From a virus, in the IMG/VR virus record IMGVR_UViG_3300009788_000229, positions 1 to 33,098 of that record: DNA of 33,098 nt; one strand, given 5' to 3'. Positions within the stretch are counted from its first letter, which is position 1. Every line of letters starts with the position of its first letter. The position numbers and the translations under genes are program-made. Under the pieces are notes generated by a model. It was not told the origin of the DNA and made no database searches. It saw only the letters and a list, made by a program, of their open reading frames with translations. Positions 2,155 through 32,733 of the stretch are shown piece by piece.

Positions 2155-3591
2155 CTACCTCCCATGGTTTTGAAGCCTTTGAATAATTAGTTCGCCAAGA
2201 TGATTGGAAATACCCTCGATGCCACCAGAAAGAATTCTCTTCAGCCCCTCTTCATCAGGCACAGATGGAACCCAACCATCATTATCTTCATTTTCTGGTC
2301 CCTCGCCTTCCCCTAAAGGGACCATGTTTTTATTAAGTATAGGCTTATCTCCCCATGGAACTGGATCTTTATTGTCTTCTTCCCTTTCCATATTAATATT
2401 AGAATAGCCTGATTTCAAATGAGATTCTACTTGTTTCAATCTAAATTCTGGATCAATAGGAACAGGATTATCGAAAGCAACAAATAGATTTTCATCATAC
2501 TGAGGAGAAAGCTTTTCATTAATCTTTTCCTCCGTCCGTATGAGCCTAGGGCGTATAGCATCCCTCATAAAATTCTCATTGGCTACTGTAGCATTGGCCC
2601 TAGTCGAATCTTTATCCCATAAACCAAGAGATTGGCCGTAAGCATTCAAAATCTCTTCTTTCACATACGGTCTACCTCTCAAAAAACTAAGATCTTTTGG
2701 TGTAGCCCCGTAAGATTTGTACTTTACTCCCTTTTCCAAAAGAGGCGACTTGCCAACATTCTCCGTACCACGAAATGTTTGATCTATCTCTTGCTTCAGT
2801 CTTTCAAACTCATATGTGCTAAGCTCATTATCTGTCTCGAAAGCTCCCTCAAGACGACCCATATTCTGAAATATGAAATTCTCATAACGGTTTATATTTC
2901 TGCTAATATTATACGAGCTAGTCACAGCCGACAACGGACTCTGCCCATAATAAACATTAGTTGGGGATGGCATCTTGAAATGGACAATCTCACCTTCTTC
3001 GAAAAACTGCTGCTGCAAACCCAATCCGTAAACATACCCCTTTATAAAATCAATAGGATCAGGAATGATCTGAAAGCTAGCCGGAGGAATCACCCATAAT
3101 TCTCTAGGGATGCCAAGCTTATCTTTCAAAATGTACCAGTAAGCATTTCCGCATAATTCCTGATACAGATCAGTTATTTCAAAAAGACTAAATTGATTCA
3201 TATAGCTATTAACGTGTCTAAATAGCTGTAGCATAGGGTGTTCCAAAATCTCCACTATTTCTACTGCTTGCTTCACTTGCGGCAGATTTAACAATGATGG
3301 CCTGTTTCTGATGTCTGCCTCTTTCTCCCTTGAAATTGCCTTAAACTTGTAATTCTTTAGTGGGTTCGTGTTTGGCTTGCCGGCATAAACCCTAATTGGA
3401 GTGGAAGCGACAGCTGTTGCATTCTTAGAAGAAGCTGTATAAACCCATCCAGTGTAAGCCTTTAAATAATTTGCAAAATTGCTATCCGGCAGAAGCCCTT
3501 TATTATAAGAAAAAGGCCACAAAAGCTTGCCGATCAGCTTATTGCCTCCATTCCTACGGGAAATATCGATATTCGTAAACGGTATTTTCAT
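2155..3591 (-). CDS. Portal protein, HK97 family
   Basis: This 478-residue protein has the pattern of HK97-type portals: an N-terminal region, the ELCGNAYWYI segment (about 145), the IPPASFQIIPD segment (about 168), the YYGQSPLSAV segment (about 214), and a C-terminal helical part with KEEILNAYG and RPRLIRTEEKINEKL. Portals form the dodecameric ring at one head vertex through which DNA enters and leaves, and they dock the terminase. The length is usual for the family. Its start overlaps the end of the large terminase gene by 4 bases and its stop is followed at once by the protease gene, the usual order terminase-portal-protease. The acidic C-terminal tail is typical. Confidence 0.9.
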   Translation of the reverse strand: MKIPFTNIDISRRNGGNKLIGKLLWPFSYNKGLLPDSNFANYLKAYTGWVYTASSKNATAVASTPIRVYAGKPNTNPLKNYKFKAISREKEADIRNRPSLLNLPQVKQAVEIVEILEHPMLQLFRHVNSYMNQFSLFEITDLYQELCGNAYWYILKDKLGIPRELWVIPPASFQIIPDPIDFIKGYVYGLGLQQQFFEEGEIVHFKMPSPTNVYYGQSPLSAVTSSYNISRNINRYENFIFQNMGRLEGAFETDNELSTYEFERLKQEIDQTFRGTENVGKSPLLEKGVKYKSYGATPKDLSFLRGRPYVKEEILNAYGQSLGLWDKDSTRANATVANENFMRDAIRPRLIRTEEKINEKLSPQYDENLFVAFDNPVPIDPEFRLKQVESHLKSGYSNINMEREEDNKDPVPWGDKPILNKNMVPLGEGEGPENEDNDGWVPSVPDEEGLKRILSGGIEGISNHLGELIIQRLQNHGR

Positions 3592-5342
3592 AGCAATCTC
3601 GCTCTAGGTCTTCCTGATCCTTTTACGAAAGTTAAACAAAGAGAATCGCCCTCATCAGGACTTCTGTTCAGTTGCTTTCTCATATCATCTTTGGAAGTGA
3701 CTTTGATCTTGCCACCCTGGATTACATACTCTGGAACAATCAGTTCTTCAGTCAATCTTTCTGATGGGGGCAGCATAGCAGTAGGGTCTGTTTTCAACCA
3801 CTCTCTTACCGCCCACCAAAGCTGATCTCTCAATAAACCGAATTCACCTAACTCTGATTTCTCTGTTGGAGAAGAAGCAACCATAATTCTCTTGGCATTG
3901 CAATGAATAATCTTCATTGGCGATTCAGATTTGCATTCAGAATTGGGGCACTCGGCATCATCTCTGGAGTTTGGTTCTGCAACAACTTTCCCACATGCTT
4001 CACACTTCATACGGAATGTCATATTCATCGCAGGGGCAACCCCGGCGCCAACACCAGTAGAATCTACATTGATTACTCTCCCCTCTTTCTCATGATAAAT
4101 CAGAGCCCCTCTCTTGGCACTTTGGTGGACATCCATTCCGTGCCATTTTTCTATCGGCGGTACAAAACCACCATAGCGGCAGCACAAGGTGTTGTAATCT
4201 TCACCTAAGTCTGCTGCATCAAATCCAATAGATGGGTTCACCCCTACTGGAGGATTCTTCCCGAATTCTGCAACATAAAGATCATATCTACTTCTAGCTT
4301 TATCTACCCAATCTGTGCTTATCAACTGGTGGGCACTTTGAAGAGGATATTCACCAAGAACCATATAGCTATATTGTGGCTCCTCAATAATTCTATATCC
4401 TGGCTGAAGAGGAGGATACTCTTCCATCCTATCGTTTTTAGCGATAGCACCTTCTAGAAAATCTGGCACTTGGAAAATTCCTGGCTTAAGTTGGTCGCCT
4501 TCATTTTTTGGACAATCTCCAGGTTCTGCAGGAGTAGTCCATTCATTGATCCTCTTGACTGTTTGATCTCTAGTTACTGCACCAGGAATAAGATCCTCTC
4601 CAGAGATAACATTAGGATGATCAAATGCCGTCATAGTGACGACTTTACACCTACCATCACGAATCATCCTATAGACAGCGCCCATTCTACGCTTCGGATT
4701 AAACATCACTAGTAATCTTGCAAACCCACCACTCATGCAGGATTCAATAGCTCTGTAAATCTCATCTGGAATAGCATCACCCTCATCAAGGACAAACAAA
4801 AGGTTTGGAGCGTGCATTCCAGAAAACTTAGCTTCTCTCTCATCCTCGGATCCACTCATGGGAATTGAGACGCCAGTTATAAAGCTCTTAGAATCATCTT
4901 CTGGCTGGATGTGAAGGCTTGTTATTCTATCATTAGCAAAAACTTCAGGGCTTAGTTTAATCTGCATTCTAATTTCGCCCCACAACTTTGCTTTTAGATT
5001 TCTTTCGGCAGGAGGTGCTGTAGCTGTAATGACTTGGGCATCGGGTCTGCATTTCTGGAACCAAATGGAGAGAAGGCTTGCTGCGAAAGTTTTACCTACA
5101 GCGTTAGCAGAGACAGCTATTGTTACAGGATTCTCAACAACAGCATTCATCATACGTTTGATATCAACTGTCAAGACTTGCCCCAAAACATCTTCGCAGA
5201 AGCCAGAAGGATCCAATAGGTAATCAGATACATTAACCTCAGACAGAAGATCATCAATCTCATCTTCAGAATACTGATGGATGATATTATTCACAATATC
5301 ATCAGTATATTCGCTAAGATCTAATTCTTGTGGTTCAGGCAT
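3588..5342 (-). CDS. Terminase large subunit (TerL)
   Basis: This 584-residue protein is the packaging motor and nuclease. The ATPase part shows a Walker A SANAVGKT (78-85) and a Walker B LLFVLDEG (181-188) with Asp186-Glu187. The RNase H-like nuclease part shows acidic positions in IGFDAAD (Asp375), NVDSTG (Asp427) and SPDEGDSL (about Asp567). Between the second and third nuclease motifs lies a C-x2-C-x14-C-x4-C pattern (Cys447, 450, 465, 470) that looks like an inserted zinc ribbon, not common in TerL. It lies between the small terminase (stop and start overlap at 5342) and the portal gene. The family is clear; the packaging type (cos or pac) cannot be told from here. Confidence 0.93.
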   Translation of the reverse strand: MPEPQELDLSEYTDDIVNNIIHQYSEDEIDDLLSEVNVSDYLLDPSGFCEDVLGQVLTVDIKRMMNAVVENPVTIAVSANAVGKTFAASLLSIWFQKCRPDAQVITATAPPAERNLKAKLWGEIRMQIKLSPEVFANDRITSLHIQPEDDSKSFITGVSIPMSGSEDEREAKFSGMHAPNLLFVLDEGDAIPDEIYRAIESCMSGGFARLLVMFNPKRRMGAVYRMIRDGRCKVVTMTAFDHPNVISGEDLIPGAVTRDQTVKRINEWTTPAEPGDCPKNEGDQLKPGIFQVPDFLEGAIAKNDRMEEYPPLQPGYRIIEEPQYSYMVLGEYPLQSAHQLISTDWVDKARSRYDLYVAEFGKNPPVGVNPSIGFDAADLGEDYNTLCCRYGGFVPPIEKWHGMDVHQSAKRGALIYHEKEGRVINVDSTGVGAGVAPAMNMTFRMKCEACGKVVAEPNSRDDAECPNSECKSESPMKIIHCNAKRIMVASSPTEKSELGEFGLLRDQLWWAVREWLKTDPTAMLPPSERLTEELIVPEYVIQGGKIKVTSKDDMRKQLNRSPDEGDSLCLTFVKGSGRPRARLL

Positions 5343-15816: not shown

Positions 15817-16082
15817 TGGTACCTGTAGCAAAAGTTGATATGGATTTTACTATCAACATGAGTCTAACTGAAGGAGAGGCAAGAGCATTAGAGGCAGTAA
15901 TGGGATATGGGTTCGAAGCCTTCCTTGACTGCCTCTATAAAATGGGAAAACACTATCTCGAGCCACACGAAAAGGATTTGCAAAAACTTTTCAACAGCAG
16001 AGGCCAGCTGATCAGCCAATTGAACAGAATAGATGCAGCACGAAAAGCCTTTTTTGAAGATGGCCAGAAACCAGGGAGTTAA
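15816..16082 (+). CDS. Conserved phage small protein (LEPHE type)
   Basis: This protein of 88 residues begins with a strand (KVDMDFTINMSL), then TEGEARALEAVMGYG and LEPHEKDLQKLF, then a coiled-coil-like end. From memory this pattern (EARALxAxxGYG ... LEPHE) recurs in small phage proteins of unknown function; I cannot name the family. GGAGG lies 5 bases before ATG. Confidence 0.6.
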   Translation: MVPVAKVDMDFTINMSLTEGEARALEAVMGYGFEAFLDCLYKMGKHYLEPHEKDLQKLFNSRGQLISQLNRIDAARKAFFEDGQKPGS

Positions 16083-18270: not shown

Positions 18271-18472
18271 TCAGGATGTTGATACCCTAACAAAACTTGA
18301 GAACCGTCTTATCACTATGCGTAAACGGGAAGCGGCGAACGCGAACTCAAGAATGATGATAGAAGAATTTTCAGAAGCAATAAAAAAGATTCACACTATC
18401 CGTCAGGATTTGCAAGCCCGTTTCAGGATGACAATTGATGAAGATATTAACCCTTTCAGATACAGTCTTTAA
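18254..18472 (+). CDS. Coiled-coil small protein
   Basis: This 72-residue protein is almost all helix with heptad-like spacing (LTKLENRLITMRKREAAN, then MMIEEFSEAIKKIHTIRQDL). It begins inside the end of the upstream gene behind an AAGGGAAAAT site. It may dimerise; function unknown. Confidence 0.55.
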   Translation: METLNDQDVDTLTKLENRLITMRKREAANANSRMMIEEFSEAIKKIHTIRQDLQARFRMTIDEDINPFRYSL

Positions 18473-22192: not shown

Positions 22193-22313
22193 ATCTGTCT
22201 TATATGTTCTATATGGTGGTGGTGTCATGTTACATTTGGTTGATATTGTGAAAATCTATGTTATCTATGGGGATAGGCCACCTATACTTTACATATATGA
22301 TCAGCCAACCTAA
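22185..22313 (+). CDS. Very small hydrophobic protein
   Basis: This 42-residue protein has mostly hydrophobic residues (ESVLYVLYGGGVMLHLVDIV) and could lie in the membrane. AAGG sits just before the ATG, very close. It is the last rightward gene before the convergent region; the evidence is overlap and continuity only. Confidence 0.3.
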   Translation: MIESVLYVLYGGGVMLHLVDIVKIYVIYGDRPPILYIYDQPT

Positions 22314-22701
22314 AACCTGTTCCAGCTAAGTCAGGCAGTCAGGTAGAGAACAGACCCCCACCATGGCTAAAATTATGGATGGATGATATATAATTATATA
22401 TCTATATACCAGAGAAGCCTTCTATATATCCTTACCTCCAGAGCCATCCAGCCACACCCTTTTCTCCAAACCTAGACCTCCAGACGCAAAAATACCCCTA
22501 ACCAGGTCCAGACGGCCAGAGGTATTTTGTTCCAGTTAATTTAAAACGAAATTAAATAAGCCGTAACCCAGAATAAAAATAAGAAGCCCACCAGAGAAGA
22601 TAAGGCACGCAATAAGGATTTTATCGGTAACAGGCATATCGACCCCCTAAGAAAACCCGACCCTTAAGCCTATTCTAAGCGCTTAAGGGCCGGTAAAAGA
22701 A
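22314..22701. other. Gene-free stretch between convergent operons
   Basis: I see no gene in these 388 bases. They hold an 18-base perfect palindrome at 22385-22402 (GATATATAATTATATATC), many CCAG/CATCCAG-type words, and the hairpin at 22489-22528. The operons from left and right meet here. Confidence 0.6.
22489..22528. terminator. Terminator hairpin, best read leftward
   Basis: AAAATACCCCT (22489-22499) pairs with AGAGGTATTTT (22518-22528). In the leftward transcript the one odd position becomes a G-U pair and the stem is followed by five T; in the rightward one it is a mismatch with four T. It lies between the converging operons and would end the leftward transcript of the gene at 22702-23112. 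Confidence 0.6.
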
Positions 22702-23112
22702 TTAGACGGCTTCCGGTAAGGCTTCCGGCTCTACGTCCGCGCTCAAGAGCTCTGCGCCTTCGGTAGTAAGAGAATAGCCTTCTTTCGCATTTCCGAGAAT
22801 GAGGGGCTTCGGGATATCGTTCGGATTGAGGCCGTAAGGGATAAGCTTAGATACTCTGCGCGATAGATAGGCCGCGAGGGTATCGCCTTCCTTATAGAAG
22901 CGAGTGAGCTTGTGCGCGTCGTAAGCGGCTTTACCGATCTTAGAGCGAGAGAGCCGGGCGATAATCTCCTTCTTAGATACCGGCTTACTCAACCCGACTA
23001 AGATTGAGAATACCGCTTGCGTCCCGGTAGGCTTCCCGCTTTGAGCTTTACGAAATGCGTCTATTACTAATCCCTTACCTAATCTTACTTTACTCAATTT
23101 TTTCTTACTCAT
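22702..23112 (-). CDS. Winged-helix-like protein of unlike codon use
   Basis: This 136-residue protein has a very basic N-terminus (MSKKKLSKVRLGKG) and a winged-helix-like middle (TQAVFSILVGLSKPVSKKEI, then ARLSRSKIG), with an acidic end. It may bind DNA; I do not recognise the family. Five of seven Arg codons are CGN, while most genes here use AGA, and the gene looks richer in G and C than its surroundings, so it may be a recent arrival or tuned for expression. AAAGGAGA precedes ATG, with its own promoter at 23163-23191 and a terminator at 22489-22528, so it is a single-gene unit. Confidence 0.7.
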   Translation of the reverse strand: MSKKKLSKVRLGKGLVIDAFRKAQSGKPTGTQAVFSILVGLSKPVSKKEIIARLSRSKIGKAAYDAHKLTRFYKEGDTLAAYLSRRVSKLIPYGLNPNDIPKPLILGNAKEGYSLTTEGAELLSADVEPEALPEAV

Positions 23113-23162
23113 TTTTCTTTCTCCTTTTATTAGATACGATTTATTTCGTATCCTTTAAAAGT

Positions 23163-23191
23163 ATACTATATTCTTTTTTCTTAGAACGCAA
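23163..23191 (-). promoter_or_regulatory. Leftward TTGCGT promoter of the 22702-23112 gene
   Basis: Read leftward, TTGCGT (23191-23186) is followed after 17 bases by TAGTAT (23168-23163); TATAGT two bases nearer is an alternative -10. It belongs to the same family as the promoters at 24356, 24995 and 29999. Confidence 0.55.
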
Positions 23192-23774
23192 CAATTATTT
23201 TACTTTTTTCTTAATTATTTTATGAATCTTTGCTAAGTATCTGTTATTGTTAGGTATATTTATTAATATTTCTTTTCAATAGTTCTAAGTATCTAATATC
23301 CTTATAAAATTTCCAAATCCTTGAGTTCTCTGGTTCCGAGTAGTAGGGTATAGGGTAAGGCATGGGACTGGTATACAAGCTCTAAGGGATTTTAGATATT
23401 TCGGAAGGATAATGGATCTGGTATTATATATTATAGCACCGGGGAAAATCTAATCTCAAATGGATATGGTATTATATATTATGATAATGGATATATAATC
23501 GTATAAGAATAGGATATGACTGGATGGATATAGTATTATATAACAAAGCAACCATTTCAGCAGCCATCCATACATTCACCAAATCATCCAGTTTTCCATA
23601 AAATGTAGACGTTCATGACCAAACATCCAGCCATTCACTATACTATCTATTCATATGACCAGAGATGGCTACTGATTACCATTTGTACCATCCATCCAGC
23701 CATTTACAAAGACATAAAGCTATCATCCACAGAGCACGCCTTTGTGTTCATACCTCCAGACATCCATACATACA
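23192..23774. other. AT-rich gene-free stretch with repeats
   Basis: No convincing gene lies here. CTAAGTATCT occurs twice near 23230 and 23283. The repeats at 23412-23542 are listed apart. From 23550 to 23775 the word CATCC occurs many times on the plus strand (CATCCA followed by G, T or C), as also at about 22446 and 26226-26332. It could be an origin, a partition site or a binding area. Confidence 0.45.
23412..23542. repeat. Direct repeats of ATGGATATGGTATTATATA type
   Basis: Two 23-base copies at 23412-23434 and 23460-23482 differ at one base; a shorter copy begins at 23487 and a third long copy at 23524-23542. Spacing of the starts is 48, 27 and 37 bases. They are AT-rich and lie in a gene-free zone, as iterons of an origin would, but no replication protein gene is next to them. 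Confidence 0.6.
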
Positions 23775-23963
23775 GAAAGATAAAACAAAAGGCCCTGGAT
23801 AGCAAACAGGAGAGAAACCTATCCAGGGCCTATAGCCTTTCGCTACACTGTGCGATTACAGCGCCGTCAGGCTTAGTAACGCATCAAGCAGGAGTCAAGC
23901 CATTAGCTCCTTCGGATCGGGCGTCGCCGAATAACCACGCGGCCCGAACGAATGATGCGCTTC
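23775..23963 (-). ncRNA. Structured RNA with strong terminator, family unknown
   Basis: Read leftward after the gene that ends at 23964, this stretch has no reading frame but nested pairing: CGCATCA with TGATGCG (23953-23959 and 23880-23886, 7 pairs), inside it TCGGGC with GCCCGA (23942-23947 and 23917-23922) and a GGAG...CTCC hairpin. Next come AGCCT...AGGCT enclosing CGCTGTA...TGTAGCG, and then a 12-pair terminator. It is more GC-rich than its surroundings. It may be a 3' regulatory RNA or a small RNA cut from the operon transcript. I know no matching family. A riboswitch is less likely because no gene follows it closely on that strand. Confidence 0.55.
23783..23830 (-). terminator. Strong intrinsic terminator, leftward
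   Basis: GGCCCTGGATAG (23791-23802) and CTATCCAGGGCC (23819-23830) form a perfect 12-pair stem with a 16-base loop. Read leftward it is followed by TTTTGTTTT (23790-23782), a usual U-rich tail. It ends the leftward transcript that starts near 24350. Confidence 0.85.
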
Positions 23964-24170: not shown

Positions 24171-24188
24171 CTTACTCTCCAGCAGCTT

Positions 24189-24308
24189 TTAGGATTTATA
24201 TATCCAGCCGAACAGAGAAGCAAAAGCCTTATCTACCACTTTGAATGTAGCATAGAGTATTCCGGCTATACCTAAAGGGATAGACATTACTAAGACAAAA
24301 TCTCCCAT
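24189..24308 (-). CDS. Very small membrane protein
   Basis: This 39-residue protein has a hydrophobic first half (FVLVMSIPLGIAGILYATF) and an amphipathic end (ASLFGWIYKS). An almost perfect GAAGGAGGTGAT site before ATG makes it a good call despite its size. It is the first gene after the leftward promoter at 24356-24384. Confidence 0.6.
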   Translation of the reverse strand: MGDFVLVMSIPLGIAGILYATFKVVDKAFASLFGWIYKS

Positions 24309-24355
24309 CGGAAATCACCTCCTTCTCTCAATGCGTTCCTTTATCTTATAGAAGG

Positions 24356-24384
24356 ATTATAGTAAAGATAGACGTGATACGCAA
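24356..24384 (-). promoter_or_regulatory. Leftward TTGCGT promoter
   Basis: Read leftward, ACCCTTGCGT ends at 24379, then 17 bases, then a perfect TATAAT (24361-24356). It has the same CCCTTGCGT block as the promoters at 24995 and 29999 and serves the genes at 24308 and 24170 and the structured RNA. Confidence 0.75.
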
Positions 24385-24548
24385 GGGTTATAGTATGTTT
24401 AACATAGTTTTATATTGTTTTGTCTATTCCGGTTTATTATGTTTTGGCTTTGCTACCGATATGCTTATGTATCTGATTGTGCCACATATGATGCTTACTA
24501 TAATTATGCACCAGACTGAAGCAGGCATAGTCTATGTCCTTGTTTGGA

Positions 24549-24788
24549 TTATGCTTGTTGTGCTGCGCCTACTTTGCCTTGAATGCTCGTCTTGACTTCT
24601 AGTCTAGCAGACAACTCGTGAATTCCCCTTTTAATCCCTAAAGCTTCATTTGCCAAGGCAGCAAGCATATACCAATCGGTAGTCTGAGCATTATGATTCT
24701 CTTCAGTGATATCCCGAAGCTGCTTATAGATTTCATCCAGCGATTCCTTCTTTTTCCTTAGGACTTCTGCCATCTTCATATCAATCAT
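24549..24788 (-). CDS. Coiled-coil small protein
   Basis: This 79-residue protein is helical and charged (MKMAEVLRKKKESLDEIYKQ, then LANEALGIKRGIHELSARLE). GGAAAGGTGGTGAT stands before ATG. It lies alone between two leftward TTGCGT boxes (24379 and 24958). No family recognised. Confidence 0.6.
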   Translation of the reverse strand: MIDMKMAEVLRKKKESLDEIYKQLRDITEENHNAQTTDWYMLAALANEALGIKRGIHELSARLEVKTSIQGKVGAAQQA

Positions 24789-24952
24789 TCACAATCACCA
24801 CCTTTCCTCTCTTAGAGCTTATTTAAGCCTATGCCCTTCTAAGGCAATTAGAGATAAGCGTTAGCCTATCCAAAACGACTTAGAAGGATGATAGGGTATG
24901 AATAGAATAATGATTTATCTATCCTATTTCCTATAGAGTACTATAAGATATT

Positions 24953-25005
24953 ATGGTACGCAAGATATAAATTATGGTTAACATAGTTATTCCCTTGCGT
25001 ACCAT
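24953..25005. repeat. 12-base inverted repeat over TTGCGT boxes
   Basis: ATGGTACGCAAG (24953-24964) and CTTGCGTACCAT (24994-25005) are perfect inverted copies 29 bases apart. Each holds a TTGCGT -35 box, so divergent promoters may face away from this centre. The rightward one is good; the leftward one has only a weak -10 (TACTCT, 17 bases on). The extra matching ACCAT beyond the -35 points to a protein-binding site too. Confidence 0.6.
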
Positions 25006-25023
25006 TTTGGTCTATTATATACT
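24995..25023 (+). promoter_or_regulatory. Rightward TTGCGT promoter of small-gene cluster
   Basis: TTGCGT (24995-25000), 17 bases, TATACT (25018-25023). The upstream ATAGTTATTCCC block is the same as at 29987-29998, before the giant RNA. It precedes the gene at 25060. Confidence 0.75.
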
Positions 25024-25059
25024 ATTTTAAAGTAAGATAAGGAAGGAGGTGAGGAAACT

Positions 25060-25374
25060 ATGCCGAAAGAAATAACGGATCGAAAAGTAACATTCTCGTG
25101 TAAGGAATGCGGAAGAGATGAACCGTGCACTTTATCGATAACTTATGATAAAGATGAGATGGAAGAGAATGGAGAAGATAGTGACATAGTCTGTCCCTGG
25201 TACTTCAATAGCGCCCATACAGCAAAATTGGCCAGAATAAAGAAACCAGACACTTCATTCCATTGCACCGTGCCTTCAGAGAAATGTCCAAAAGACTCTG
25301 AAGAAGAATCCTGTCTGGAATGCGAATACAGCCCTGATTACTCTGAATCGCTGTATGATGACAGAAGCGTCTAA
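25060..25374 (+). CDS. Zinc-ribbon small protein, paralog of 25955
   Basis: This 104-residue protein has CKECGRDEPC (14-23), DIVCPW (about 43-48) and further Cys at 63, 69 and in CLEC. The first part matches the protein at 25955 (C-x2-C...PC, then a CPW). GGAAGGAGGTGAG stands before ATG. It is acidic, likely binds zinc, and is the first gene of a cluster of tiny genes that share long ribosome sites. Confidence 0.6.
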   Translation: MPKEITDRKVTFSCKECGRDEPCTLSITYDKDEMEENGEDSDIVCPWYFNSAHTAKLARIKKPDTSFHCTVPSEKCPKDSEEESCLECEYSPDYSESLYDDRSV

Positions 25375-25954: not shown

Positions 25955-26164
25955 ATGAAGATATACGCTTACAAGTGTTCATTGTGCTACGGAGAGGAAG
26001 CACCATGTCGTCTGATCTCTGCTGTACCAAAAAATATAGTGAAGCATCCAGAGTCAGACGTACAAGATCCGCCAGACCTGTGTCCTTGGTCTGTGATAGA
26101 GTCGGCTATTCCTGTCTCTGCCTGGCCTGTCTGGATTTTAGAAGGTGTGTTCGAAAAGGTCTGA
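25955..26164 (+). CDS. Zinc-ribbon small protein, paralog of 25060
   Basis: This 69-residue protein has CSLCYGEEAPCRL and PPDLCPWSVIE, matching CKECGRDEPCTL and SDIVCPWYF of the protein at 25060. Leader CAGCTGAAAGGAGGTGATAG is nearly the same as before 25536. The two differ in the length of the end (the 25060 protein has a Cys-rich tail). Confidence 0.6.
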   Translation: MKIYAYKCSLCYGEEAPCRLISAVPKNIVKHPESDVQDPPDLCPWSVIESAIPVSAWPVWILEGVFEKV

Positions 26165-26959
26165 TCGCAACAACCAGTTAAGGAAAGTGGTCAAATATCA
26201 ATAGGTTATCCTTATTCCTGCTGTATATCATCCATCCAGTCAACCAGGGATCATACCAAAATTCAATTATCTTCTCCCTCTTATAGGGTCGGATCTTCTA
26301 TTGTTGTGATCTGCTCTGGTTATCATCCATACATTCAGTGGTAGAACATACATTAATTGAGACTTTCTGTCCAAATGACCAGTCATATTGTGTGATAATG
26401 GATCATCATCGGTCATTTTACTCATATTGTTGTATAAGCTCTCTATATGACTACGTCCGTGACGGACCAGCACTATAGACAAATGTAGCACAAAAATCAC
26501 ATATATATAAGATTGATCACATACAGACACATATATAAACACAAAATACATACTAAACCCCTTCAGAACACAATAACTAACAAAGTTCCTTACTACTTAC
26601 CCTTGCATACACAGGTTAACAGAATAAGAACAGGGGATCACATCTTATTACTCTCTTATACCCCGTACTATAGGTTAGTATAGTCTATGTTTCTTATGTT
26701 CTATTTATATTTGCTGGATTTTTTCTTTATTAGTTCTTTTACGGAAAATTATGATCCTTAGTGATTTTAATATGTTTCATTAGTTTTACTCTGTTATTTT
26801 GGTTCTATAATATGAACTATGATAAGTATGTGATTTTTATTTAGATTGTAGAGTTTTAATTGAAATCAGATTTTACTTCTGTTCATATTGGTTTATTTTT
26901 GTTTATCTGAAACAGAATGATATTAATGATTTATACAGCTTTATTACATATAATTTTAC
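26165..26959. other. Gene-free AT-rich stretch
   Basis: I see no gene with a ribosome site in these 795 bases. There are CATCCATCCAG and CATCCATACATTCAG words at 26226-26332 like those near 23565-23770, short hairpins GTCCG-TGA-CGGAC (about 26455-26467) and ACTATA-ggttag-TATAGT (about 26668-26685), and then very AT-rich DNA. It could hold regulatory sites or an origin. Confidence 0.5.
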
Positions 26960-26988
26960 TTTACTTTATTACCCTTTTAATATATAGT
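26960..26988 (+). promoter_or_regulatory. Rightward TTTACT promoter of lipoprotein operon
   Basis: TTTACT (26960-26965), 17 bases, TATAGT (26983-26988). The spacer contains CCTTTTAATA like the promoter at 6437-6465, so both belong to one class. Confidence 0.55.
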
Positions 26989-27037
26989 TAAATATAGAAG
27001 GGAGCAAATATATTAGTCTATAAGGAGGTGAGAAAAT

Positions 27038-29568: not shown

Positions 29569-29898
29569 ATGAAACCAAAAGTCTTTCTCGGCGATCAGGA
29601 AGTGGATAAAGTTTACTGTGTTGATGAAGAGTTAGGTATCATTTGGAGATACAAACTAGACAGAGAAGGAAAGCATATGTTTAACCATGATAGATCAAAA
29701 TTACTAACTCAGGTCTTGAAAGGGAAAGTCAGACTTGAATTCGGACCATTATCGAGCAAAGCTATCACAATATTCTGGTTGAACAAGATAGCAGAACTAT
29801 ACAAGATGCATGACTATCTCAAAAATGGTTCAGAATCAGATATTGATTGGCAGACGGTTGTTTGGACAAGATTCAAAACTGTAAAACAGAATCGATAA
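29569..29898 (+). CDS. Unknown phage protein, start probably shifted
   Basis: The reading frame is open from just after 29517 and reads DYPVHKYDEDYDEDLIA before the first ATG at 29569. The only good ribosome site (AGGAGGAAAGGAG) stands before ATG 29514, which in its own frame stops after eight codons. A +1 shift right after ATG 29514 would give MDYPVHKYDEDYDEDLIAM and a protein of about 127 residues. The core (KVFLGDQEVDKVYCVDEELG, then IIWRYKLDREGK) looks like small phage proteins of unknown function. The start is thus doubtful: error, mutation or recoding. Confidence 0.6.
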   Translation: MKPKVFLGDQEVDKVYCVDEELGIIWRYKLDREGKHMFNHDRSKLLTQVLKGKVRLEFGPLSSKAITIFWLNKIAELYKMHDYLKNGSESDIDWQTVVWTRFKTVKQNR

Positions 29899-29998
29899 TT
29901 TTGGAGAATATCAGAACGGGACTATTCCCTATCATATAAACCAATGATATCACTATATTTCTACCATAATTTTTTATTGTGAATCCATAGTTATTCCC

Positions 29999-30027
29999 TT
30001 GCGTTACATTTCCTTTTTTTATATAAT
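29999..30027 (+). promoter_or_regulatory. Rightward TTGCGT promoter of the giant RNA
   Basis: TTGCGT (29999-30004), 17 bases, perfect TATAAT (30022-30027). The block ATAGTTATTCCC ahead of it is the same as before 24995. Transcription should begin near 30034, next to the first hairpin of the RNA. Confidence 0.8.
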
Positions 30028-30034
30028 AAAGTTT

Positions 30035-31319
30035 CTAAGGTAAGATATACCTTAGAGAAGAAACATAGCTCAAGGGAGCGTGCGGGTAGAGAGTCGCGGT
30101 GGCTCGGGGAGCGTAACCGTTCTCATCACAATCTGATAAGGGTCGGGAATCTAGATTATAGACGTTCCTGAACAGGAAGCCCTTCAGAGCCTGCTACATC
30201 GTTCAAGATAGAGTAGGCGGTTCACAACCCACCGGAAAGATAAAGAGGGAGTCGTATGGAATCCTCCGGGTAAAGCTGTCCGGAAGGTTACTAACCTTTT
30301 ATGCCAGCTAAGCTCACGCACTGAATCCAATCATACTTAAATCTCCTCTCCGGTCACCCTCGAAAACGCCAGAAAGAGGAAAATTTGCTGGCGATATGGC
30401 AAGTAGACTCTACCGAGATAATAAAACCTGTCTCAAGTCTGATGTACCCCTTGCCGGTAAGGGAATAGACCTCTTCCATAAAATATCCTCCAAGATCTTA
30501 AGTAAATCCAAAATGGTACTTGTATGCTATCACAGATATGGGTAAAGAGATCTAAAGCTTAATCATCATTCATTACAAAGCGAACGAGAAGGATATGGGC
30601 GATAGGAATTGGCATCCAAAGTTAGTAAAGGCAGCTAAGATAGGCGTGTCGACCTACGGTCTATGGTAAATTGTGTGTACCACCTCTGTACTATAGACAT
30701 AAAAGCAATTCGGCTCGTAGGGCAAGAAAAATCTGACTAACGATCAGTGGATACCGTGAGGCTATGAAAGCTACGGACTCTCATGTAGATACCGGGAGAG
30801 ACGCTGACTGATACGCGTTGGACTAAATGCTTGCATGTGTAAAGCCAGTACGAAAGGTCATATTTTGTGGAAACCTAGGAGTGTTCACAAGATAGGATAG
30901 TTTTATCATATAGTTATACAAAGGTTCTCAGCTTCCCGTAGAATGAAGAGGAGAGTAATATGATGAGATGCGTTATCCTGTGATGGATAAGCCCTGTATA
31001 GTATATGTGATTTTGTCCTAAAACGTCTCTGACCAAAAAGGAGCGAGATGGACGGAAGTAAAAAACTTATGGCTTGAAATATCGGAAGTTCAAAAGTATC
31101 CGGTTGAATCTCTAAACTCAACCACACTACCGGATTATATGATATACAATAGACCCTATACTTAGTGAAGCGAGGATGCCGCTTGGTTGAGATACCGAGT
31201 AATAAATTCATATACCTCCTCCTTTGAAAAGAAGGTAATAGGTCACCCCTTGGGAGAGCTTGCATAGCTGTCTTAAGGGGTGATACTATTTAAGGACATC
31301 TTTACCAGAGGTGTTTTTA
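30035..31319 (+). ncRNA. Giant structured noncoding RNA, about 1.28 kb
   Basis: No gene of reasonable length with a ribosome site lies here on either strand. A good sigma-70-like promoter stands just before it, and a terminal hairpin at 31283-31327. It is full of hairpins: CTAAGGT...ACCTTAG (30035-30055), CGGT/GCTC...GAGC/ACCG (about 30096-30120), TCTGA-AGGG with CCCTTCAGA (about 30131-30188), AAGGTT-ACT-AACCTT (about 30285-30299), CGCCAG...CTGGCG (about 30367-30393), GTCTATGGTA...TACTATAGAC (30659-30698), GGTTGA...TCAACC (about 31101-31122), AAGCG...CGCTT (about 31168-31184) and CACCCCTT...AAGGGGTG (31244-31282). Large phage RNAs such as GOLLD (about 800 nt) and ROOL (about 600 nt) are the closest idea, but I could not match it to either, and it is longer. 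Role unknown. Confidence 0.75.
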
Positions 31320-31327
31320 AATAGTAT
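31283..31327 (+). terminator. Terminal hairpin of the giant RNA
   Basis: ATACTATTTAA (31283-31293) is inverted exactly at 31317-31327 and encloses ACATCTT...GAGGTGT (31296-31302 with 31308-31314), making an extended hairpin. The inner hairpin is followed by TTTT (31315-31318) and can work as a terminator by itself, in competition with the outer stem. Confidence 0.65.
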
Positions 31328-31354
31328 AAAACCCTACCAAAAAAGGAGAATGAT

Positions 31355-31750
31355 ATGAACAAAGATGATAACCCATACACTTATGTAAATCATAAATTGA
31401 GAATTGTCGATTTCAATTCAGAGAATTTCACTAATGCAATTATAAATTTAAAAGATTGTTTATCTGATCTAAGCAAGCTTAAAGCTGAAATATCAGAAAC
31501 TCCAGGTTGTGTAGAGAACATGCTGATGGCAGAAGGATGTACTTTGAGTGACTTCGGCCACCTCTTTCTGCCAGAGAGAATAGACGTTTTTGACCGAGGA
31601 GACAACAAGGCTTATTCAACAGATAGACTGTGTATGTGTAAAATCTGGTACCCTACTATGGAAACAGGGTTCACATGTCCTTGTTGGGAAATGAGCAGAG
31701 AAAAATTGATCAAGGATTTGGGCAAGCTACTATTCTGTCAGACTAAATAA
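31355..31750 (+). CDS. Cys-rich tandem paralog 1
   Basis: This 131-residue protein ends with CMCKIWYPTMETGFTCPCWE followed by a helix (MSREKLIKDLGKLLF). Its front has helices with LKDCLSDLSKLKAEI and CVENMLMAEGC. It belongs to a set of four neighbouring genes with a front helix, a Cys in the middle, and C-x-C-x-x-x-YP...CPC and a helix at the end. The Cys set suggests zinc. AAAGGAG precedes ATG. It is the first gene after the giant RNA. Confidence 0.65.
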   Translation: MNKDDNPYTYVNHKLRIVDFNSENFTNAIINLKDCLSDLSKLKAEISETPGCVENMLMAEGCTLSDFGHLFLPERIDVFDRGDNKAYSTDRLCMCKIWYPTMETGFTCPCWEMSREKLIKDLGKLLFCQTK

Positions 31751-31760
31751 AGGAGGATTT

Positions 31761-32054
31761 ATGATATTGCAGATGAACAAGATGCAATTAAAAAATATGA
31801 AAATCATTATGGAAAATCTCGAAAGGACTGGGCGTTCAGGACTGTGTCCTTTTGAATACACTGGGAATTTGCACTTACGCGATTGCAAATCTTTTTGCGG
31901 TAAAATCTTTCCAAGGTTAGTCAAAGATATCAAAACTGGACTGACTTATATTGGTGCTATGAAATGCCCGTGCCTTTCTACTTTATCTAAAGCACACATC
32001 ATTGCCAGGACAAGGAAAGTCATCGAGCAAAATGAGCAAGATAATGATTCATAA
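31761..32054 (+). CDS. Cys-rich tandem paralog 2 (shorter, diverged)
   Basis: This 97-residue protein has a front helix (MQLKNMKIIMENLERTG), LCPFE, a CKSFCGK pair and, near the end, KCPCLSTLSKAHIIARTRKV, the CPC plus helix of the family. It is the most diverged of the four. GGAGG precedes ATG. Confidence 0.6.
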   Translation: MILQMNKMQLKNMKIIMENLERTGRSGLCPFEYTGNLHLRDCKSFCGKIFPRLVKDIKTGLTYIGAMKCPCLSTLSKAHIIARTRKVIEQNEQDNDS

Positions 32055-32063
32055 GGAGGCGAT

Positions 32064-32357
32064 ATGGCAGTCCACATCGTAATAGACTTTGCTGATCCAA
32101 ATGTGACAAGAACTTTGGAGAGGATCTTATCAGAGCTTAAGTTAGCAGGTAGCGCTGGTTGCGTTGACATGTATCTTGTAGATCTGGCAAATGGTTATTT
32201 CTCATTCCCGTTGAAAGACAGCTACACACAATGCCAGATCTGTCAAACTCAGTATCCAGTTCTAAAAGAACATCAGTTCAAATGTCCATGCGAGATAGAG
32301 TCATTGGACAAACTCATTTCAAATCTTGAAGATTTCATCTCAGAACAATCTGAATGA
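32064..32357 (+). CDS. Cys-rich tandem paralog 3
   Basis: This 97-residue protein has FADPNVTRTLERILSELKLA, a GCVDMYLVDL segment, then CQICQTQYPV and FKCPCEIESLDKLISNLEDF. It pairs closely with paralog 4: DPxxTxxLxxILxxLKL, then a C-x-D segment, CxxCxxxYP and CPC. AAGGAGG stands before ATG. Confidence 0.65.
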   Translation: MAVHIVIDFADPNVTRTLERILSELKLAGSAGCVDMYLVDLANGYFSFPLKDSYTQCQICQTQYPVLKEHQFKCPCEIESLDKLISNLEDFISEQSE

Positions 32358-32394
32358 CTAGTATTAATCCATTCACAAACTAACAGGAGGAACT

Positions 32395-32733
32395 ATGCCA
32401 GAAGATAAGCCGCATATCTTACACGACTTCGAAGATCCTGATATAACAAAAGTTTTGAAAACAATCCTTGGCCATCTTAAGTTAGGCCGAAACGCAAATT
32501 GTCTGGACACCCTAATAGAACTCTGTCCTGATATGGCAATCCAAGGAAAGAGAAAACGCCGAATACCAGAAGACGATGCTTGCAAGGTCTGCGAAACGAT
32601 GTATCCTCAAATAGCAATCGATGGACAGAAGCCTATCCCTAGGATTGCCTTGGACTGCCCATGCGATTATGTAGATGATAAGAAATTAGTCATTTCCAAT
32701 CTGAAAGAACAGATAAAAATCCAATCCCAGTGA
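32395..32733 (+). CDS. Cys-rich tandem paralog 4
   Basis: This 112-residue protein has FEDPDITKVLKTILGHLKLG, NCLDTLIELC, CKVCETMYPQ, DCPCDYVDDKKLVISNLKEQ. It is the closest relative of paralog 3, with a basic insert (GKRKRRIPED) before the Cys pair. AGGAGG precedes ATG. Confidence 0.65.
   Translation: MPEDKPHILHDFEDPDITKVLKTILGHLKLGRNANCLDTLIELCPDMAIQGKRKRRIPEDDACKVCETMYPQIAIDGQKPIPRIALDCPCDYVDDKKLVISNLKEQIKIQSQ

Follow-up and report, generated by a model that had tools for sequence, protein, structure and literature searches.

Large noncoding RNAs encoded by phages

GOLLD, a large phage RNA, and ROOL, a large RNA of phages and mobile elements that contains no ORFs, are frequently located near tRNAs. 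Many GOLLD members are longer than 800 nt, and GOLLD and ROOL both assemble into RNA-only cages (PMC12286853). In the Vibrio phage ICP1, RNA-seq revealed that the most abundant transcript is an RNA of about 800 nt, which originates from a 1-kb ORF-less space between gp139 and gp140 (PMC7567579). Here we describe a locus in a 33-kb virus record, positions 30034 to 31328, which we consider, with a probability of roughly 0.55, to encode a large noncoding phage RNA with a transcription unit of its own. "The window" denotes the whole stretch of DNA that was analysed (33,098 nucleotides).

Genome setting

The source of the window is a tailed phage. The genes for the large terminase (3588-5342) and the portal protein (2155-3591) are both reversed, whereas genes for a DnaB-like helicase, a DNA helicase and a primase lie on the plus strand; about 20 kb of small genes come after them. 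Terminase relatives were mainly found in Desulfobacterota / Deltaproteobacteria MAGs, and the host can therefore probably be placed in this group. No tRNA genes were detected in the window by ARAGORN, and the location beside tRNA genes that is typical of GOLLD is thus not seen here.

The candidate RNA is flanked by small plus-strand genes, the upstream one at 29569-29898 and the downstream ones forming a Cys-rich array (Table 1). The four ORFs of this array align with an invariant C...C...CPC pattern, gave no match in Pfam or PHROG and probably encode zinc-binding proteins. The first of them has a good ribosome site and starts 28 nt past the last hairpin of the candidate RNA. A similar pattern, C-x2-C...PC...CPW, was observed in the ORFs at 25060-25374 and 25955-26164.

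Further gene-free gaps of 0.8 to 0.9 kb are present at 23113-23902, 24171-25059 and 26182-27037. These gaps are AT-rich and do not fold in excess of expectation. The GC content of the candidate stretch is 43%, compared to 30 to 37% in the three largest other gaps of the window; where a genome is AT-rich, GC-rich noncoding DNA commonly marks structured RNA. Elsewhere in the window, dinucleotide composition is at its most deviant at 22251-23112, around a minus-strand ORF of 136 aa (22702-23112) that had no family matches, and this region is possibly a recent acquisition.

Table 1. Positions of the candidate RNA and of associated sequence features in the window
Feature	Position	Strand	Remarks
Candidate large noncoding RNA, ~1.29 kb	30034..31328	+	six frames without coding signal; fold; ends inferred
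Promoter TTGCGT-N17-TATAAT	29999..30027	+	5' neighbouring block CATAGTTATTCCC common to the copy at 24995
Second promoter copy	24995..25023	+	exact motif; ahead of small Cys-rich ORF 25060-25374
Third promoter copy	24356..24384	-	exact motif
5'-terminal hairpin, 11 bp	30032..30058	+	MFE -12.4, z -4.7
Strong hairpin near 3' end	31237..31290	+	MFE -33.3, z -6.8
3'-terminal hairpin, 21 bp	31283..31327	+	UUUUU run in 3' arm; MFE -21.4, z -5.8
Four tandem Cys-rich ORFs	31355..32733	+	starts at 31355, 31761, 32064 and 32395; directly 3' of candidate RNA

Coding potential

An initial annotation, made from the sequence, had described the locus as gene-free, and this was borne out. When codon usage was scored in six frames, with the phage's own genes as the training set, the score was at or below 0 throughout 29761-31500, compared to about 0.1 to 0.2 for the adjoining genes. 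The 3-base periodicity of the stretch was 0.9, which corresponds to noise; some of the phage's small real genes are also low in this measure. When all frames were searched with stop codons masked, no protein family was matched. The stretch is real and non-coding, and coding potential is absent over the ~0.5 to 1.3 kb that would be expected of a large noncoding RNA.

The annotation had gone further in stating that no frame carries a ribosome site, which has to be amended. The minus-strand frame 31211-30906 (101 aa) shows the sequence AAGGAGG 6 nt ahead of its ATG, and some plus-strand frames of 6 to 27 codons carry Shine-Dalgarno-like sequences. The codon score of the 101-aa frame, however, was -0.13, a value that is common to shadow frames (-0.27 to 0.08) and that all 36 reference genes (0.01 to 0.20) exceed. 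Searches with this frame for a protein family or a homologue found none.

Promoter and end hairpins

A promoter with a perfect TATAAT and a 17-base spacer had been proposed at the 5' edge, and both elements are indeed present: TTGCGT at 29999-30004 is separated by 17 nt from TATAAT at 30022-30027. Because the -35 element matches TTGACA in only three of six positions, the promoter was missed by a consensus scanner. The pattern TTGCGT-N17-TATAMT is nevertheless found in three exact copies in the window, where about 0.02 copies would be expected by chance as estimated from base frequencies. Around the second copy, the region 24972-25039 shows 76% identity across 68 bp to the one at 29999, and the ORF downstream of this copy has a good ribosome site. 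There is good sequence evidence that TTGCGT-N17-TATAAT is a phage promoter, and at this level the candidate RNA would possess a promoter of its own in the form of the three-copy motif. Near 24955-25005, the element TTGCGTACC is present also in inverted form (GGTACGCAA), resulting in a divergent pair. A scan of IMG/VR gave 51 single matches to the promoter pattern; the relatedness of these 51 records to the phage was limited to weak matches of common enzymes.

The three hairpins at the ends of the stretch are beyond doubt as sequence features. The 5'-terminal one adjoins the putative transcription start. The 3'-terminal hairpin was already part of the initial annotation, but the end given there, 31319, cuts into it; the other two had not been given separately. 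The two 3' hairpins have pairing partners in common at 31283-31290, where the outer pairs of the upstream hairpin overlap the arm of the downstream one. No canonical terminator call was obtained for the 3'-terminal hairpin, which is a possible terminator or attenuator.

Fold of the interior

Folding energies were expressed as z-scores relative to shuffled sequences, with base-pair spans limited to either 300 nt or 80 nt. With the 300-nt limit, z-scores of -1.0 to -2.3 were found for the interior. Local folding (80-nt limit) gave -2.81 for the plus strand and -0.86 for the minus strand, with values around -1.8 for both halves of the stretch. The local folding density of -0.236 kcal/mol per nt was the highest of all 1.2-kb segments tested in the window, while the z-scores of other segments reached -2.6 (80-nt limit) or -3.6. 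Several local domains of the stretch fold independently. As to the "at least nine local stems" of the initial annotation, we counted seven stems of at least 6 bp compared to 3.8 +/- 1.9 in shuffled sequences (P = 0.09), a number that is not above chance.

Two established RNAs served as controls. For the ICP1 RNA, z-scores of about -1.9 and -2.7 were obtained with the 300-nt and the 80-nt limit, respectively, the latter splitting into -2.71 for the RNA strand and -1.06 for the opposite strand. The ROOL of plasmid pMP118 gave -0.7 and -1.1 (RNA strand -1.10, opposite strand 0.08 at 80 nt). Since the z-scores of the stretch equal those of the ICP1 RNA and surpass those of a true ROOL, fold statistics of this weak kind decide nothing; the interior statistics are compatible with a large RNA without proving one. 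The A-rich plus-strand loops that the candidate appeared to share with ROOL and the ICP1 RNA were discarded as a common trait, as shuffled sequences and coding segments show the same signal, which is fully explained by composition.

Searches for known families and homologues

The initial annotation could not match the stretch to GOLLD or ROOL, and the covariance-model searches that it called for support that the stretch does not belong to GOLLD, ROOL, OLE, HEARO or the introns. None of the 4227 Rfam families matched the stretch at its gathering score, and cmscan with permissive filters (E <= 10) returned chance-level hits only, the best at E 0.11 and far below its gathering score. The models of OLE, HEARO, group I and II introns and the other Rfam families were all unmatched. 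GOLLD (RF02032) was matched neither at the gathering score nor at E <= 10 nor in a direct search, with a model for which no positive control exceeded the cut-off. In a direct search with ROOL (RF03087) the stretch gave no match, while the positive control, plasmid pMP118, was matched at E 1e-29.

Nucleotide searches (blastn) with the RNA against phages and plasmids, against sets of 15, 31 and 16 related virus or genome records and against 395 genomes of the phylum around G046 gave chance-level matches only, of at most 22 nt. One match, in L141, falls inside protein-coding ORFs. Two stretches of the RNA, used as exact patterns, had no match in IMG/VR; this collection was covered by exact patterns and protein neighbours, so that the absence of homologues there carries little weight. 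No relatives were found for the proteins neighbouring the RNA. Relatives of the terminase and the primase do exist, but the closest contigs end before the region equivalent to the RNA; in contig G001, whose overlap with the phage is essentially 100% identical, the sequence stops at window position 18472.

In the related phages, large gene-poor stretches of L028, L035, L037 and L040 and at the end of L126 were inspected by eye or by Rfam scan, and none resembles the RNA; they are AT-rich, apparently coding, or a tRNA array. The array is located at 15900-16530 of L126 (56.6-kb related phage G016) together with further tRNA-like fragments, and its members are separated by a 33-nt repeat (TCATGTAAGCCCTCAAAGTATC...) with copies at 16025, 16118, 16284 and 16483. 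In L037 (related phage G011), 4690-6840 is a gene-poor region of 2.1 kb, about 0.9 kb past two tRNA genes, in which some segments are richer in GC; this is a further candidate place for a large RNA.

Alternative explanations

The three promoter copies, the non-coding frames, the GC content of 43%, the plus-strand fold excess, the end hairpins and the precedent of ICP1 together favour a free noncoding RNA. This reading is weakened by the empty homologue searches, which leave no covariation to analyse, by interior z-scores that other segments of the window match, by the other large gaps, which show a loosely packed genome, by a 3' hairpin that is non-canonical as a terminator, and by a window devoid of tRNAs, unlike the surroundings of GOLLD and ROOL. 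Its main rival, which we judge improbable, is a long 5' leader, where a single transcript would run from the promoter through the stretch into the Cys-rich genes (31355 on), the hairpins at 31237-31327 would serve for attenuation or processing and the kilobase ahead of them would be regulatory. No promoter-like site was found in 31150-31400, between the RNA and these genes, which makes read-through into them likely. The short distance from the last hairpin to a well-placed ribosome site and the shared pairing partners of the 3' hairpins, which are attenuator-like, point in the same direction. Yet 1.3 kb would be extreme for a leader, and the strand-specific fold excess and the GC enrichment span the whole stretch, including both halves.

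Slightly less probable than a leader is a non-functional or DNA-level spacer: a decayed gene, the relic of an insertion, or a region used in replication or packaging. The promoter would then mainly serve the downstream genes. The lack of homologues, an interior fold barely past shuffled sequences with a stem count at chance and the other large gaps of the same genome would all be expected of such a spacer; however, the six masked frames contain no remnant of a protein family, GC is raised where the other gaps have it lowered, no iteron-like repeats were found, and extreme hairpins are located at either end. The independent folding of several local domains could also reflect several smaller RNAs in a cluster, or a known ribozyme that escaped detection (group I/II intron, IS-associated guide RNA). 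This is very unlikely: permissive cmscan up to E = 10 did not return an intron, HEARO or similar family, the stretch splits no gene and it has a single promoter of the TTGCGT type. We give the lowest probability of all to a minus-strand protein gene at 31211-30906, whose strong, well-spaced Shine-Dalgarno sequence is opposed by its shadow-like codon score, by the lack of any family or homologue, and by neighbours that are on the plus strand on either side.

The free noncoding RNA remains our preferred reading. Host RNA polymerase would initiate at the TTGCGT-N17-TATAAT promoter, and the 5' hairpin may cap the RNA against decay. The tandem 3' hairpins would end or trim it, with partial read-through into the Cys-rich array. 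Such an RNA might reach a high level during infection and act in its folded form rather than as a message. By analogy with GOLLD, ROOL and the ICP1 RNA, its most likely mode would be that of a highly expressed RNA, possibly self-assembling, with an effect in trans on the translation of host or phage or on RNA metabolism.

Comparison with known systems

Promoter, absent coding signal and end hairpins fit the proposal of the initial annotation that the locus encodes a separate noncoding phage RNA larger than GOLLD and ROOL. An interior fold that is only modestly past shuffled sequences and nucleotide searches that yielded no homologues do not suffice for its bolder terms, "giant structured RNA" and "new class". 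That the RNA is the first of a new giant class, longer than either GOLLD or ROOL, whose fold would be ornate and conserved and whose assembly possibly homo-oligomeric, is rather unlikely. As an orphan large phage RNA has already been published for ICP1 (PMC7567579), the candidate would join a known kind. If phages hold many unrelated large RNAs, as the ICP1 RNA suggests, these would represent a repeated solution and not two odd families; a 1.3-kb orphan from a Desulfobacterota-linked phage would extend their range and provide an independent case for work on structure and function.

Phage leaders and attenuators resemble the locus in combining a promoter, a long untranslated stretch and tandem hairpins ahead of an operon, but their usual length is far below 1.3 kb. 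GOLLD is, like the candidate, a large phage RNA; the candidate differs in its length of ~1.3 kb, in having no tRNA nearby and in not matching the model. ROOL shows similar fold statistics, but its model comprises 574 positions compared to ~1.29 kb, and a sequence kinship was rejected, as the similarity was not above that of shuffled sequences. The ICP1 RNA is likewise phage-encoded, from an ORF-less space of about 1 kb, free of tRNA neighbours and with a strand-specific fold excess. Base compositions are nearly identical, with A.32, C.19, G.24, T.25 for the candidate and A.32, C.20, G.23, T.25 for the ICP1 RNA. Kinship in sequence was again rejected (local score 322, shuffled sequences 337 +/- 29), and transcription is proven by RNA-seq for the ICP1 RNA, whereas for the candidate it is deduced from sequence. 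The best reading of these comparisons would be that the candidate is like GOLLD, ROOL and the ICP1 RNA in kind and a member of none of them.
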